Positions 9,062-38,755 of a stretch of DNA of 39,073 nt are shown one piece after another. Positions within the stretch are counted from its first letter, which is position 1. The number at the start of each line of letters is the position of its first letter. Made by a program: the position numbers and the translations under genes. The DNA comes from a virus. Location: IMG/VR virus record IMGVR_UViG_3300042914_004718, positions 1 to 39,073 of that record. One strand, 5' to 3'. The notes under the pieces are model-generated. The model had not been told where the DNA came from, ran no database searches, and saw nothing but the letters and a program-made list of their open reading frames with translations.

Positions 9062-9444
9062 ACGCGCTCGACAAGGTCGCCGAACTCTACCGCCGCTATC
9101 CGCAGCCGCGGACCTTTGCCGAGGATGTCGAACTCCACGCCTGGCACGGGGTCGCGATCGTCCTGCCCGAGTTTGTCATGCTGGCCCGCCCGGTGGACAT
9201 CCACGACCCGGACATCCGCTGGCACGACCCCGTCCACAGATACAACCCGTTGTGTTGGGACTGCTGGTTCATCCATCTATTTTGTGGTATCAGTCAAAAT
9301 AATCCTTGCAATTTTGCGCCGATAGAGTTGCCTTGGATCGCGTGGGCACGCCGCGATGGCGTGGTCCGCGTTTATCCAACCCATAAACTCAAACACAAAT
9401 GCGAATTTCTGACCCGGTCGACAACCCGATCCTCGCTCCCGTGA
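9058..9444 (+). CDS. unknown podovirus protein between terminase and portal
   Basis: The product is 128 residues long. It has the feel of a small conserved protein found beside podovirus terminases (AWHGVAIVLPEFVMLARPVD, later ELPWIAWARRDGVVRVYP), with no known function. An AT-rich patch (9270-9310) in the middle encodes FIHLFCGISQNNPCN and contains the - strand copy of the TTTTGACTGATACCA element, as if the element had been placed inside the gene. The last 15 codons overlap the next gene by 46 bases. The natural end may be earlier in related phages. Confidence 0.6.
   Translation: MNALDKVAELYRRYPQPRTFAEDVELHAWHGVAIVLPEFVMLARPVDIHDPDIRWHDPVHRYNPLCWDCWFIHLFCGISQNNPCNFAPIELPWIAWARRDGVVRVYPTHKLKHKCEFLTRSTTRSSLP
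9285..9299 (-). promoter_or_regulatory. copy of the TTTTGACTGATACCA element (- strand)
   Basis: This is an exact 15-base match on the - strand inside the gene at 9058, preceded (reading leftward) by TTGCAAGGATTA. It sits in a local AT-rich patch unlike the surrounding coding sequence. An open - strand frame begins 10 bases downstream (ATG ending at 9276), but it is antisense to the terminase and looks like a shadow. Confidence 0.5.
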
Positions 9445-9830
9445 CCGCTTGGCTCGGCGGGGGGAGTCGCGGACCCTCTCAAGCGCAAAGGGACGCCCAA
9501 GCCCGCCAGCAGGCCGAAGCCCAAGCCGCCGCCGCACGGCAGGCCGAGCAGGCCCGCCAACAACAAGCCGCAGCGCAGGCCGCTGCCGCCCAACAAGCCG
9601 AAAACCAAAGGCGCCAACTGGAAATCTTGGAAAAGCAACGCGCCGAGGCCAAGGCCGCGCAGGAGGCCCAAATGGCTGAAATGGTCCGGCAGGCCGAGGC
9701 CAACAAGCCCGCGCCCGCCGCGCAGACCGATTCGGTCCAGCGCAAATCTACCTTCCGGCGGCGGCGCAGCATCTTGGCTGGCGAGGCGAACCAAGCCCCC
9801 ATGACCACCGGAGACACCACGCTCGGGTAA
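9399..9830 (+). CDS. Ala/Gln-rich coiled-coil protein near portal
   Basis: This 143-residue protein opens MRISDPVDNPILAPVTAW. A long Ala/Gln/Glu-rich helix spans about 28-105, then a basic stretch (RKSTFRRRRS) and a short tail ending GDTTLG. Podovirus genomes often carry such a protein directly before or after the portal, and the terminal RRRxSILxG...GDTTLG pattern recurs there. Its role in head assembly or ejection is not established. It ends one base before the portal start. Confidence 0.65.
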   Translation: MRISDPVDNPILAPVTAWLGGGSRGPSQAQRDAQARQQAEAQAAAARQAEQARQQQAAAQAAAAQQAENQRRQLEILEKQRAEAKAAQEAQMAEMVRQAEANKPAPAAQTDSVQRKSTFRRRRSILAGEANQAPMTTGDTTLG

Positions 9831-12881: not shown

Positions 12882-12952
12882 CGCAGGATGGAGAAACGGT
12901 ATCTCGCCAGGTTCATACTCTGGAATTCCGGGTTCGATCCCCGGTCCTGCTA
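12882..12952 (+). tRNA. phage tRNA with CAU anticodon (Met or Ile2)
   Basis: A 71-base cloverleaf can be drawn. The acceptor is 12882-12888 with 12945-12951 (six pairs, position 1 C opposite U) and discriminator A 12952. The D stem is GAGA/UCUC with GG in its loop, and the anticodon stem is CCAGG/UCUGG with loop UUCAUAC. The variable loop is four bases, and the T stem is CCGGG/CCCGG with loop UUCGAUC. The anticodon is CAU. The unpaired first base recalls initiator tRNA, but the three GC pairs of an initiator anticodon stem are absent, so an elongator Met or a lysidine-modified Ile tRNA is more likely. CCA is not encoded. A T8 run follows. Confidence 0.82.
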
Positions 12953-24878: not shown

Positions 24879-27800
24879 TGGCCACCATCTCCGACGAAAC
24901 AGCCTCGCTGTATTACGCCGAACTCGACACCGCGACCGGACCCGACCTTGAGGCCCGCCGCAAGGCGCTCCAAGAATGGGCCACCGCCAAGGAGGTCGAG
25001 CAGGAGTCGTCCCAATGGGACCACCTCACCCGCGTCTACGGAGATTTCGACAACTACATCAAAAGCGAAGGCTACGCCGATCTCGACGAGGAGTCCCGCT
25101 ACCGGGTCGCCAACCGTCAATTCATCGCGTGGCAGCTCCGCGAAACCCCCGAGGAGCAGGCGACCATCTATCCCACCCGCCGCGAAATCTACAACCAGCA
25201 AACTTTCGGCAAAAAAAACCTGTCCGAGGCGGAAACCTTCAACCTCATCCGCGACAGCGTGGCCGCCCGCAAGGCCACCGAGGACGCCCTGCGCGAAATT
25301 CCCGGCACCCTCGCCAAAGGAATGTTCCAATCCGTCGCCGCCGGAAAGCCCATTGAGGATTCGGACGGGTGGTTCCTGCTCCAAAACTGGAAGGAACGCC
25401 ACGCCGACAAGCTCGCCTCGCTCCCCGATGGCTGGGAGTCCGCCATGCTCGACCGCGCCACGAAACTCCTCGTGCGCTCGGACAACATGATGCGCGACCT
25501 CGCCCCGGAATCCAAACGCGCCTTCGACACCCTCCTCGCCTTCAGCCGCCCGGAGGACGCCGCCGGCCTCCCGCCCGCCGACCGCGCCGATGTCGAGAAC
25601 CTCGCCAAGGAATTCGCCAAGCTCGACCCGGAGCAACGCCAGGACATCTACTCGACCCTCTATTACGCCGCCGAGGCCGATGGCGCTGGCATGGGCAAGG
25701 GATTTTTTGAAAAGGTAGGCGAGGGACTCGCCCGCGGCGGCGTCAATATCTACGACGATGCCATGATGGCGACCGAGGACAGGCAAATCCGCGAAAACCT
25801 GCGCCGCCTGCGCTCGGGCGATCCGGTCTACCCGGGGCCGAACGACACCGTGCGCCTGGACCGCGAGATCGTTGCCCCCTCGGGCGAGCTGGTTGCCATG
25901 CCGCAAGCCGTCCCGTTGCAGGAGGATTTCGGCACCCCGCTCACCGAGGAGCAAAAAACCGAGCGCCTCGCCCAAAACGAGCAACGCCTCGCCGAACTCA
26001 AGGCGCTGCGCGAAATTCGCGACATCTCCCAAGGCACCATCGACCCCATCAAAACCGAGATGGACGGCGTCATGGGGTCCATCGTGCAAGGTGCCTACGA
26101 CTTTTCGCAATCCGCCGCCTACACGGGCATGGCTATGATCCCTGTTGTCGGCCTGCCCGCGGTGATGGGCGCCCTTGCCAGCAGCAACTACCTGCGGATG
26201 CTCGACGCCTACCCGGACATGGACCCCGATGCCGCCATGACGATCAGCTACGCCATTGCCGGCCCACAGGCATTCATCGAGCGGTTCCAAGCCAACGCCC
26301 TCATCGGAAAATCCCCGGCACTCAACGCGCTCATGCGGAGAATGACCGATGTTCGCATCCCCATCGCCGGTCGCCTTGCCATTGGCTACGGGGCCAATGT
26401 CGCCTACCAGACCGGGCAGGAGTTTGTGCAGGAGGCCATGCCAGTTGTTGCCGACCAGATTGCCGCAGCGATTAGGCAGGATATGTCGGAGTTCGACTCC
26501 GAAAAAGCATGGGGCGCCTACAAAGACCAGATGCCCGAAATTTTCTACTCCATGCTCTGGGCGGGACTCATCGGCACCGGAGCCAGCACATTCCGCGAAC
26601 TCAAGCGCAACGGCGCCTACGAACGCTCGCTCGGCGAACTGGAAATGGTCGGCATCACCGGCGAAGCCGCGCAGGACATTGCTGCCGAGCAAGACCCCGA
26701 TGCCGCCACCGCCAAGTTCCGCGAGGCATGGGACAAGCGCACGCCGGAGGACATCCAAGCCGGCATCCGCAAACGCGCCGCCCAACTGGAAGCCGCCCGC
26801 TCCACCCAGCAAAACCCCGAACTCCCGACCCGCCGGATCGAGGAGAACCCGGACGGCACACTCACCCACATCATCGAGCGCCCGGACGGCACCGCCCTCT
26901 ACCGCACCAACGATTCCGACGCCGCCGACATGGCGTTCGTCAACATCACCCGCATGGTCGAGCGCGGTCAGATCACCGGCACCACCACAGGCATCGTCGA
27001 ATCCCTGCAATTCATCGACCAGGTCAACCAAGCGGTCGCCCGCGGCGAGGACATCCAGCAGCTCGTCATCGAGGGCGCTCCGCGCACCCTCCTCGACGAA
27101 TACGAGGCGAACCCCACCGAGCAAAACCTCAACAACCTTTTTGAAACCGTCCGCGCCTTCGGCATGGACATCAACGAACCCGCCGAACTCGCCCAGTTCC
27201 CGGTCCTCGCCAGCAACCGCGGGGCGCTCGCCGAGGGCATCTACAAATCCGTGATCCGCATCCAAGAAGGCGCGACCGGCGTCGAGGTCATGCGCGATTT
27301 CTCGCAGGACAACCTCAAACGCGCCATCGCCGAGAACCGGATCACGATGGATTGGGTCCGCGAACAGCTCAACCAGGTCATCCCTCTCATTGAGAGCGAG
27401 CGCACCGAGCGCAGGCTCCGCACCGAAACCGATACCGATGTCATCGAATCGTTCTCCGATGTCGCCGTGGCCTACCTCAACGGCAAAATCCGCGACGAGC
27501 AAATCCCCGCCGGCCTCCGCGGATTCCTGCGCCGGATCGCCATCGTGGTCCGCGACATCTTCCGCCGCGCCTACCGCCTCAAGCGGGCCATCGCCGAAGG
27601 CAAGGTCAGCGGCGATTTCGAGGCATTCCTCGCCGAGTCCGTGGGCATCAACCAGCAGACCATGGTGGACACCACCCGCGAGCGGGTCGTTTCAAGCATC
27701 GCAGGCAATAATTTCTCCATTGACTCCCGCGCCACTCCAGACAACGACAATATTGTCGTGCAGGCCAGCAACGCCACAATCATCGGTCCTGCAAATTTCA

Positions 27801-35700: not shown

Positions 35701-35705
35701 AAATC

Positions 35706-35732
35706 GGACAACAAGGACAACAACGGACAACA
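35706..35732. repeat. left attP arm repeats, 3 x GGACAACA
   Basis: GGACAACA occurs at 35706-35713, 35715-35722 and 35725-35732, spaced nine to ten bases apart, close to one DNA turn. Two further exact copies lie on the other side of the core (35944-35951, 35956-35963). The arrangement is that of arm-type binding sites for the N-terminal domain of a tyrosine integrase. Confidence 0.65.
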
Positions 35733-35770
35733 TCGCCGTAAAGCGTTGTCAGTAAACAGCCGAAATCCGA

Positions 35771-35826
35771 CTCGAAATCGAGCGATCGGCAACGATCCGG
35801 GGGTTCGAATCCCCCCCCTTCCGCCA
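35771..35826 (+). other. attP core: 3' half of tRNA-Ser(CGA)
   Basis: The sequence begins in an anticodon loop CTCGAAA (CGA anticodon), continues through a class II variable arm (GATCG-GCAA-CGATC), a T arm GGGGG-TTCGAAT-CCCCC and a 3' acceptor strand CCCTTCC-G-CCA. No 5' tRNA half precedes it. A 3' tRNA fragment next to a tyrosine integrase is the usual attP core. Integration would restore the host gene. The expected attB is the 3' end of a host tRNA-Ser gene with CGA anticodon. Confidence 0.85.
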
Positions 35827-35943
35827 CCCCATCACCTCTTGTAGAGGCTTTATTTATGCGGTTCTGCGGGTGATTCCTTTTGTGGGTTGATGTTTTTTGT
35901 TGTTGTGCAATGTTGGGCTTGCGGGGCAGGTTTTGAACAACAC

Positions 35944-35963
35944 GGACAACAAACCGGACAACA
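35944..35963. repeat. right attP arm repeats, 2 x GGACAACA
   Basis: Two exact GGACAACA copies (35944-35951 and 35956-35963) lie between the attP core and the integrase start, 12 bases apart. A run of TGTTGT-like sequence at about 35898-35906 may be an inverted imperfect copy. They also lie just upstream of int, so integrase binding there could repress its own gene. Confidence 0.6.
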
Positions 35964-35972
35964 ACACCCAAC

Positions 35973-36975: not shown

Positions 36976-37170
36976 ATGCCTTACGCCGACAAAAAGACCC
37001 AAAAGAAATTCATGGCGCGGCAATACCGGGTGCGCTACCAGACCGACGAAAAATTCAAGGAGGCCGAGCGGGAGCGCAAGGCGGATTGGTATCGGCGCAA
37101 CCGCGAGAAAGTGATTGCCAAGGTGCAGGCGAACAAGTCAAAGAAAGTCAAAATTCCTCCCAAAAAATGA
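36976..37170 (+). CDS. small very basic protein after int
   Basis: Sixty-four residues, over one third Lys or Arg, helical (RYQTDEKFKEAERERKADWY). It resembles the basic, repeat-like N-termini of some phage DNA-binding proteins. No family is assigned. Its ATG is one base after the integrase stop and its stop overlaps the next ATG, so it could be co-expressed from int and might assist recombination. Confidence 0.5.
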   Translation: MPYADKKTQKKFMARQYRVRYQTDEKFKEAERERKADWYRRNREKVIAKVQANKSKKVKIPPKK

Positions 37171-38215: not shown

Positions 38216-38755
38216 ATGATCACCAAGGCCCATTGCTTCACGGTCAATGCAAACGGGCGTCTGCACACCCTTTCCACGGAAGCCTTGGTGCGCTCATCCG
38301 TGAATTCGGAAAAGAGCGCCACCCATCAAGCCAAAGCGATCTGGGATACAGGAGCCACTGGTTCGGTGATTACCCAGCAAATCGCGGCAACCTGCGGGCT
38401 GAAACCCATAGGCATGACGAAAACATCGACCGCCAACGGCGAGAGGGACAGCGAAGTGTTTTTGATCGATGTGATGTTGCCAAACAATGTCGTGTTTAAC
38501 CAACTGCGTGTGACCTGCGGTGATCTTGGCGCAAAAGGACCGGACATGCTTATCGGGATGGACATCATCGGTCATGGGGATTTCGCGGTGACATGCCATG
38601 GCGGGAAGACCACTTTTTCCTTCCGGCTGCCATCCATGGATCGGATCGATTTTTTGAAAGCCGAGAAAAAACATGTCGGCAGGAACGACCCTTGCCCGTG
38701 CGGCTCCGGGAAAAAATTAAAGAGCTGCTGCAATCTAAAACAATCAAATCTGTGA
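38216..38755 (+). CDS. retropepsin-like aspartyl protease with SEC-C zinc motif
   Basis: This 179-residue protein has an aspartyl protease domain of the retropepsin type with the active site AIWDTGATGSVI (D44-T-G-A) and the flap/fold signature MLIGMDII (111-118). One such domain would dimerise to form the enzyme. The C-terminus carries a SEC-C zinc module (GRNDPCPCGSGKKLKSCC, with C160, C162, C171, C172), which often marks proteins that bind translation-related or other targets. Coupled to the DUF5678 gene, it looks like a self-contained cassette carried by the prophage. Substrate unknown. Confidence 0.82.
   Translation: MITKAHCFTVNANGRLHTLSTEALVRSSVNSEKSATHQAKAIWDTGATGSVITQQIAATCGLKPIGMTKTSTANGERDSEVFLIDVMLPNNVVFNQLRVTCGDLGAKGPDMLIGMDIIGHGDFAVTCHGGKTTFSFRLPSMDRIDFLKAEKKHVGRNDPCPCGSGKKLKSCCNLKQSNL

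Follow-up and report, generated by a model that had tools for sequence, protein, structure and literature searches.

Integration that rebuilds the target tRNA gene from an anticodon-centred attP is standard (PMC4383910), and arm-binding integrases are the usual type in phages (PMC8138268). In tRNA-dependent lysogeny, the common core is only about 10 bp long and the phage brings a tRNA of the same isotype (PMC10865867). Matching of attP to tRNA genes has also been used before to assign a phage to Verrucomicrobia (PMC3861242). Here, we analyze a recombination site in an uncultured virus record from IMG/VR (IMGVR_UViG_3300042914_004718, 39,073 nt, hereafter "the window"). Judged from the sequence of this site and its relatives, it is almost certainly a complete attP, by which a temperate, podovirus-like Verrucomicrobiota phage would integrate into the host tRNA-Ser(CGA) gene.

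The closest described system is class A of the Islander scheme with its anticodon-loop subsite (PMC4383910). The window shares with it an attP of about 250 bp that contains a tRNA 3' fragment and adjoins a tyrosine integrase gene; the rebuilding of the tRNA gene is seen in relatives, and the crossover probably falls in the anticodon loop here as well. There is no difference in kind, but the host phylum and the integrase family were not found described there. With lambda Int and its attP, the site has in common a three-part integrase and a core flanked on both sides by repeated arm sites. It differs from lambda in that the core is half of a tRNA gene, that the arms are tandem GGACAACA octamers, that an Asn takes the place of the first catalytic His, and that the N-terminal domain of the integrase has no detectable sequence kinship to that of lambda Int. 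Group G11 of marine Verrucomicrobia phages (Mizuno et al. 2013, PMC3861242) averages 38.9 kb in length and has one member tied to its host by an exact attP-tRNA match, but it differs from the window phage in its average GC content (45.2%); no G11-named record was returned when the phage collection was queried with the integrase. The attP as such is thus ordinary in kind. The new part, and the part worth following, is the comparative series of arm sites and integrase N-terminal domains described in the last section.

Layout of the attachment site

As the sequence-only reading had stated, five copies of GGACAACA flank a piece of tRNA-Ser(CGA), three on the left and two on the right. All are exact and on the plus strand, starting at 35706, 35715 and 35725 on the left and at 35944 and 35956 on the right (Table 1). 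The piece is indeed a tRNA-Ser(CGA) 3' half, although its length is about 59 nt and not the 56 bases given before. Repeats and tRNA fragment adjoin int, as had also been claimed; the product of this gene matches PF00589 (E 8.6e-8) and the phrog_1 integrase family (E 9.4e-30).

The octamer is more densely clustered here than any 8-mer elsewhere in the window. Within 35701-35972, the most frequent 8-mer occurs five times, whereas in 5,000 dinucleotide shuffles of this stretch no 8-mer occurred more than three times, a count reached in 8 shuffles. In the rest of the window, the densest 272-nt stretch holds four copies of any one 8-mer, and GGACAACA itself recurs exactly only once, at 25480. The sole other comparably dense octamer is GCAGGCCG, with four copies inside 272 nt (about 9441-9770). 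The third left copy, together with the degenerate sixth copy that lies 9 nt 5' of the right exact pair, makes a 3+3 arm plan possible.

Table 1. Features of the attP region and adjoining genes (window coordinates)
Feature	Positions	Strand	Basis and remarks
Left (P) arm sites, three direct GGACAACA	35706..35732	+	Exact matches, spaced 9 and 10 nt; relatives have two copies at the equivalent place
attP core, 3' half of tRNA-Ser(CGA) from anticodon stem to CCA	35768..35826	+	Sequence; phage/host and attL/attR identities in relatives
Anticodon loop CTCGAAA, inferred 7-nt crossover region, with inverted CGA/TCG on either side	35771..35777	+	Phage core and host tRNA are identical from just before the loop onward
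Variable arm (35784-35797) and T arm (35799-35815)	35784..35815	+	Pairing kept across 11 distinct cores
Hairpin with T-rich tract that probably acts as terminator of the rebuilt tRNA gene	35835..35857	+	Consensus scan; many relatives have both at this position
Right (P') arm sites, degenerate GAACAACA at 35935, exact GGACAACA at 35944 and 35956	35935..35963	+	Sequence; tandem pair before int in nearly all relatives
Tyrosine integrase gene int, 333 aa	35973..36974	+	Family matches
Small basic protein, 64 aa, directly 3' of int	36976..37170	+	Same position and 64-80% identity in relatives

Searched with the integrase, IMG/VR yielded 38 loci; a second search, based on a broader alignment, yielded 80, most of the first set among them. 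Nearly all of these roughly 80 related contigs follow one plan: a left pair of arms, a tRNA 3' half, a right pair of arms and then int, with the right arms spaced 9-13 nt apart and int beginning 25-65 nt past the first of them. This recurrence, together with the attL and attR sites of integrated relatives, bears out the earlier reading of the site as an attP. Between core and right arms, the window has a G/T-rich spacer (35848-35934) with TTGTTG and TGTTG motifs, which looks similar in relatives of differing arm types; it is a possible candidate site for a bending protein or an excision factor.

The tRNA core

The core runs through the anticodon loop, a long variable arm and the T arm to the acceptor strand CCCTTCC, the discriminator G and CCA; the window's allele reads GCGATCGGCAACGATCCGGGGGTTCGAATCCCCCCCCTTCC. 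ARAGORN makes no call here because the 5' half of the tRNA is missing. A gap-free alignment with 14 relatives spans the 55 nt that precede CCA, and the Ser(CGA) cores of the relatives all begin at one and the same position of the anticodon stem and keep their 3' stems intact. In a set of 11 distinct cores, every one of the 110 cells in the variable and T arm stems is paired, with 21 double changes. The covariation score of 0.54 compares with 0.10 for shuffles and no more than 0.04 when the partners are slid. Such compensatory change fits cores that are obliged to rebuild a functional tRNA and that track the alleles of their hosts.

Comparison of phage cores with host tRNA genes shows that identity begins just 5' of the anticodon loop, and the 7 nt of this loop would be the region of crossover. 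The hairpin and T-rich tail 3' of CCA occupy an equivalent place in many relatives, so that the phage probably supplies the terminator for the rebuilt tRNA gene as well. Elsewhere, the window encodes a tRNA of its own, a tRNA-Met(CAT) at 12882-12952, between a protease-like gene and the gene for the major head protein.

Integration in host genomes

A genome scan found relatives in two Verrucomicrobia MAGs, REEB449 (G001) and nzgw610 (G002). In REEB449, the phage contig carries an intact attP, the core of which is identical over 63 nt, including the unusual variable arm, to an uninterrupted tRNA-Ser(CGA) gene on another contig. Around the site, this contig is syntenic with the window, and the two have tail, 2,743-aa and endolysin proteins in common (41-83% identity). 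As REEB449 is a MAG, the link between phage and host rests on binning and on the 63-nt match.

Integrated forms are seen in nzgw610 and in a further Verrucomicrobiota genome, G043. In nzgw610 (L041/L077), int lies about 160 nt past a complete tRNA-Ser(CGA) gene, which itself follows accA, and only right arms are present. In G043 (L080), one contig (C2) has the attL, a complete tRNA-Ser(CGA) gene with int about 160 nt past it and without left arms, and another (C3) has the attR, left arms of the GGACACA type with a displaced tRNA 3' half; the two sites have 61 identical nt in common. Throughout, the chromosomal attL loci lack left arms, as expected, and left arms occur on the attR side only. 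These loci uphold the predicted insertion into tRNA-Ser(CGA), and among near relatives no prophage of the same type was found at another locus, the observation that the sequence-only reading had named as counting against it.

The G043 prophage cannot be read through in one piece, since its attL and attR are on separate contigs. C3 terminates in prophage sequence that is 92% identical to part of C2, which suggests that the Ser(CGA) prophage was probably split when it recombined, or was misassembled, with a related one. In all, C2 and C3 (L095-L100) contain a pair of related podovirus-like prophages; tRNA-Asn adjoins one of them, and the other sits at tRNA-Ser(CGA). In nzgw610, nine matches to the integrase family, some of them broken (L077, L084, L086-L092), lie mostly beside different tRNA genes (Ser CGA, Leu TAA, Leu TAG, Arg TCT, Arg ACG, Thr TGT), and their arm octamers vary from copy to copy.

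Together, the data suggest a model for the integration of the window phage. The integrase would contact the arm sites (GGACAACA) through its N-terminal domain and the core through its remaining domains, and strands would be exchanged within the anticodon loop of the tRNA-Ser(CGA) gene of the host. Insertion would join the host 5' half to the phage 3' half and so rebuild the tRNA gene, forming attL beside int, while the displaced host 3' half and the left arms would form attR at the far end. In relatives, both the rebuilt gene and the displaced fragment are observed (attL and attR in G043, attL in nzgw610).

Competing explanations

The tRNA piece might instead be the remnant of a decayed phage tRNA gene, with the repeats acting as operators or replication iterons. 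Phages do carry tRNA genes, the window with its tRNA-Met (12882-12952) included, and direct octamer repeats can serve as operators. We consider this very improbable, because the Ser(CGA) cores of the relatives have a shared start position and 3' stems kept intact by compensatory change, and because the same kind of core forms chromosomal attL and attR sites in G043 and an attL in nzgw610, with left arms on the attR side only. Tying the site to lysogeny in another way, tRNA-dependent lysogeny would have the host tRNA destroyed and replaced by a phage copy, a mode known in actinobacteriophages (PMC10865867), and the window phage does encode a tRNA. Here, however, the core is about 59 nt long and rebuilds the tRNA, and the tRNA that the phage encodes is of the Met and not of the Ser isotype, which makes this mode exceedingly unlikely.

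A further reading takes the window not for the carrier of a free attP but for the border of an integrated prophage (attL or attR), as the contig is linear and has no terminal repeats. Left and right arms flank a single core, though, with phage genes on both sides (upstream of 35700 these encode an endolysin, a metallophosphoesterase and a small peptidase-like protein; they are not host genes), and the tRNA 5' half is absent; chromosomal attL loci, moreover, have no left arms. A prophage edge is therefore highly unlikely, and a complete, free attP remains by far the better description of the site.

Host assignment

It had been proposed that the core would lead to the host. It does so as far as the phylum: through the relatives, Verrucomicrobiota can be assigned as host phylum with high confidence, and the order is probably that of REEB449. 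It does not lead to a species. BLAST with the window's exact tRNA allele against 197 genomes of the REEB449 order gave 90% as the best identity. Allele patterns with up to three mismatches had no match in 26 genomes of the REEB449 family or 388 of its phylum, nor did patterns with up to two mismatches in 384 genomes of its class, and an exact scan of IMG/VR also returned no match. As the exact allele was not found, the host is placed to phylum only. The proposed search for genomes that combine this exact 3' half with prophages yielded relatives' prophages at tRNA-Ser(CGA), but not the allele itself. An uncultured phage group is thereby linked to Verrucomicrobiota, and its insertion site is predicted precisely enough for PCR or read-mapping tests.

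The integrase and neighboring genes

The integrase consists of an N-terminal domain (about residues 1-62, b-b-b-a), a core-binding domain (about 63-165) and a catalytic domain (about 166-333). Its catalytic positions are R198, K225, N282, R285, H308 and Y318. R198, K225, R285 and Y318 are present in 87 of 87 aligned integrases and H308 in 85; in all 87, Asn282 replaces the first catalytic His (of HxxR). The integrases of L079 and L083 lack the second His as well. Annotated phages have only distant integrases, with less than 35% identity.

The N-terminal 62 residues are modeled confidently (pLDDT 92) as three strands and one helix. This b-b-b-a order is the topology of known arm-binding domains. 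The domain found no match by sequence in Pfam or PDB and none by fold in Foldseek, where the hits, mostly retroviral integrases and all with E 0.15 or worse, were taken as chance. For the full-length model, which is poor past residue 160, the best fold match is lambda Int (1z1b, E 3.6e-4).

The 64-aa basic protein (MPYADKKTQKKFMARQY...) begins 1 nt after the int stop codon, with a GGAGGA ribosome site within the last codons of int. Almost all Ser(CGA) and Leu(CAA) relatives have a homologue with 64-80% identity at the same place, directly 3' of int, and family searches gave no match. The protein is a candidate for a directionality or excision factor, or for another accessory factor. The portal protein is about 33% identical to portals of HTVC010P-type Pelagibacter podoviruses, and the head-tail and tail families of the window fit a podovirus. 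At 38216-38755, a single protein combines a SEC-C metal-binding motif with an aspartyl protease domain of the retroviral type.

Arm sites and integrase domains

Arm sequences and tRNA targets combine in several ways among the relatives. Arms of the GGACAACA type and of the TTGGCACT type both pair with Ser(CGA) cores, TGGCACAA or TGCCACAA arms pair with Leu(CAA) cores, and GGGCAACA arms occur with Leu(TAA) and Leu(CAA) cores and in a single case with Ser(CGA). Integrases at a greater distance use other tRNA genes, and each of them has a core of its own. Comparison of the integrases is suggestive of arm sequence following the N-terminal domain and tRNA target following the core-binding and catalytic domains. 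The case is made by domain trees and by natural chimeras. Arm type changes 6 times on the tree of N-terminal domains (the minimum for seven types), 7 times on that of core-binding domains and 9 times on that of catalytic domains, and tRNA target changes 3, 2 and 2 times, respectively (minimum 2), all these counts resting on few independent events. Among 21 representatives, nearest neighbors by N-terminal domain predicted arm type in 16 cases, as compared to 18 by core-binding domain. Because the independent events are few and this test does not favor the N-terminal domain, modularity is suggested rather than proven.

To the stronger proposal, that the N-terminal domain represents an undescribed arm-binding family, swapped as a unit with its arm sites and independently of the domains that choose the target, we give about an even chance. 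Inspection of the N-terminal alignment by eye revealed no simple residue-to-base code for the arms. If the proposal is true, the series of GGACAACA, GGGCAACA, TGGCACAA, TGCCACAA, TTGGCACT, GGACACA and other arms would become a readable and testable arm-recognition code. The related sites, chimeras included, are a natural experiment on how the reading of arm sites is paired with the choice of target.

Three of the chimeras (L111, L115 and L116, on the same contigs as L008, L012 and L013) have GGACAACA arms on both sides. Their N-terminal domains are 61-70% identical to those of the GGACAAC group and 41% identical to those of the TTGGCACT group, whereas in the core-binding domain they share 85-95% identity with the TTGGCACT group and 45-56% with the GGACAAC group. 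In L121, GGGCAACA arms and a matching N-terminal sequence are found with a Ser(CGA) core very near the window's allele.
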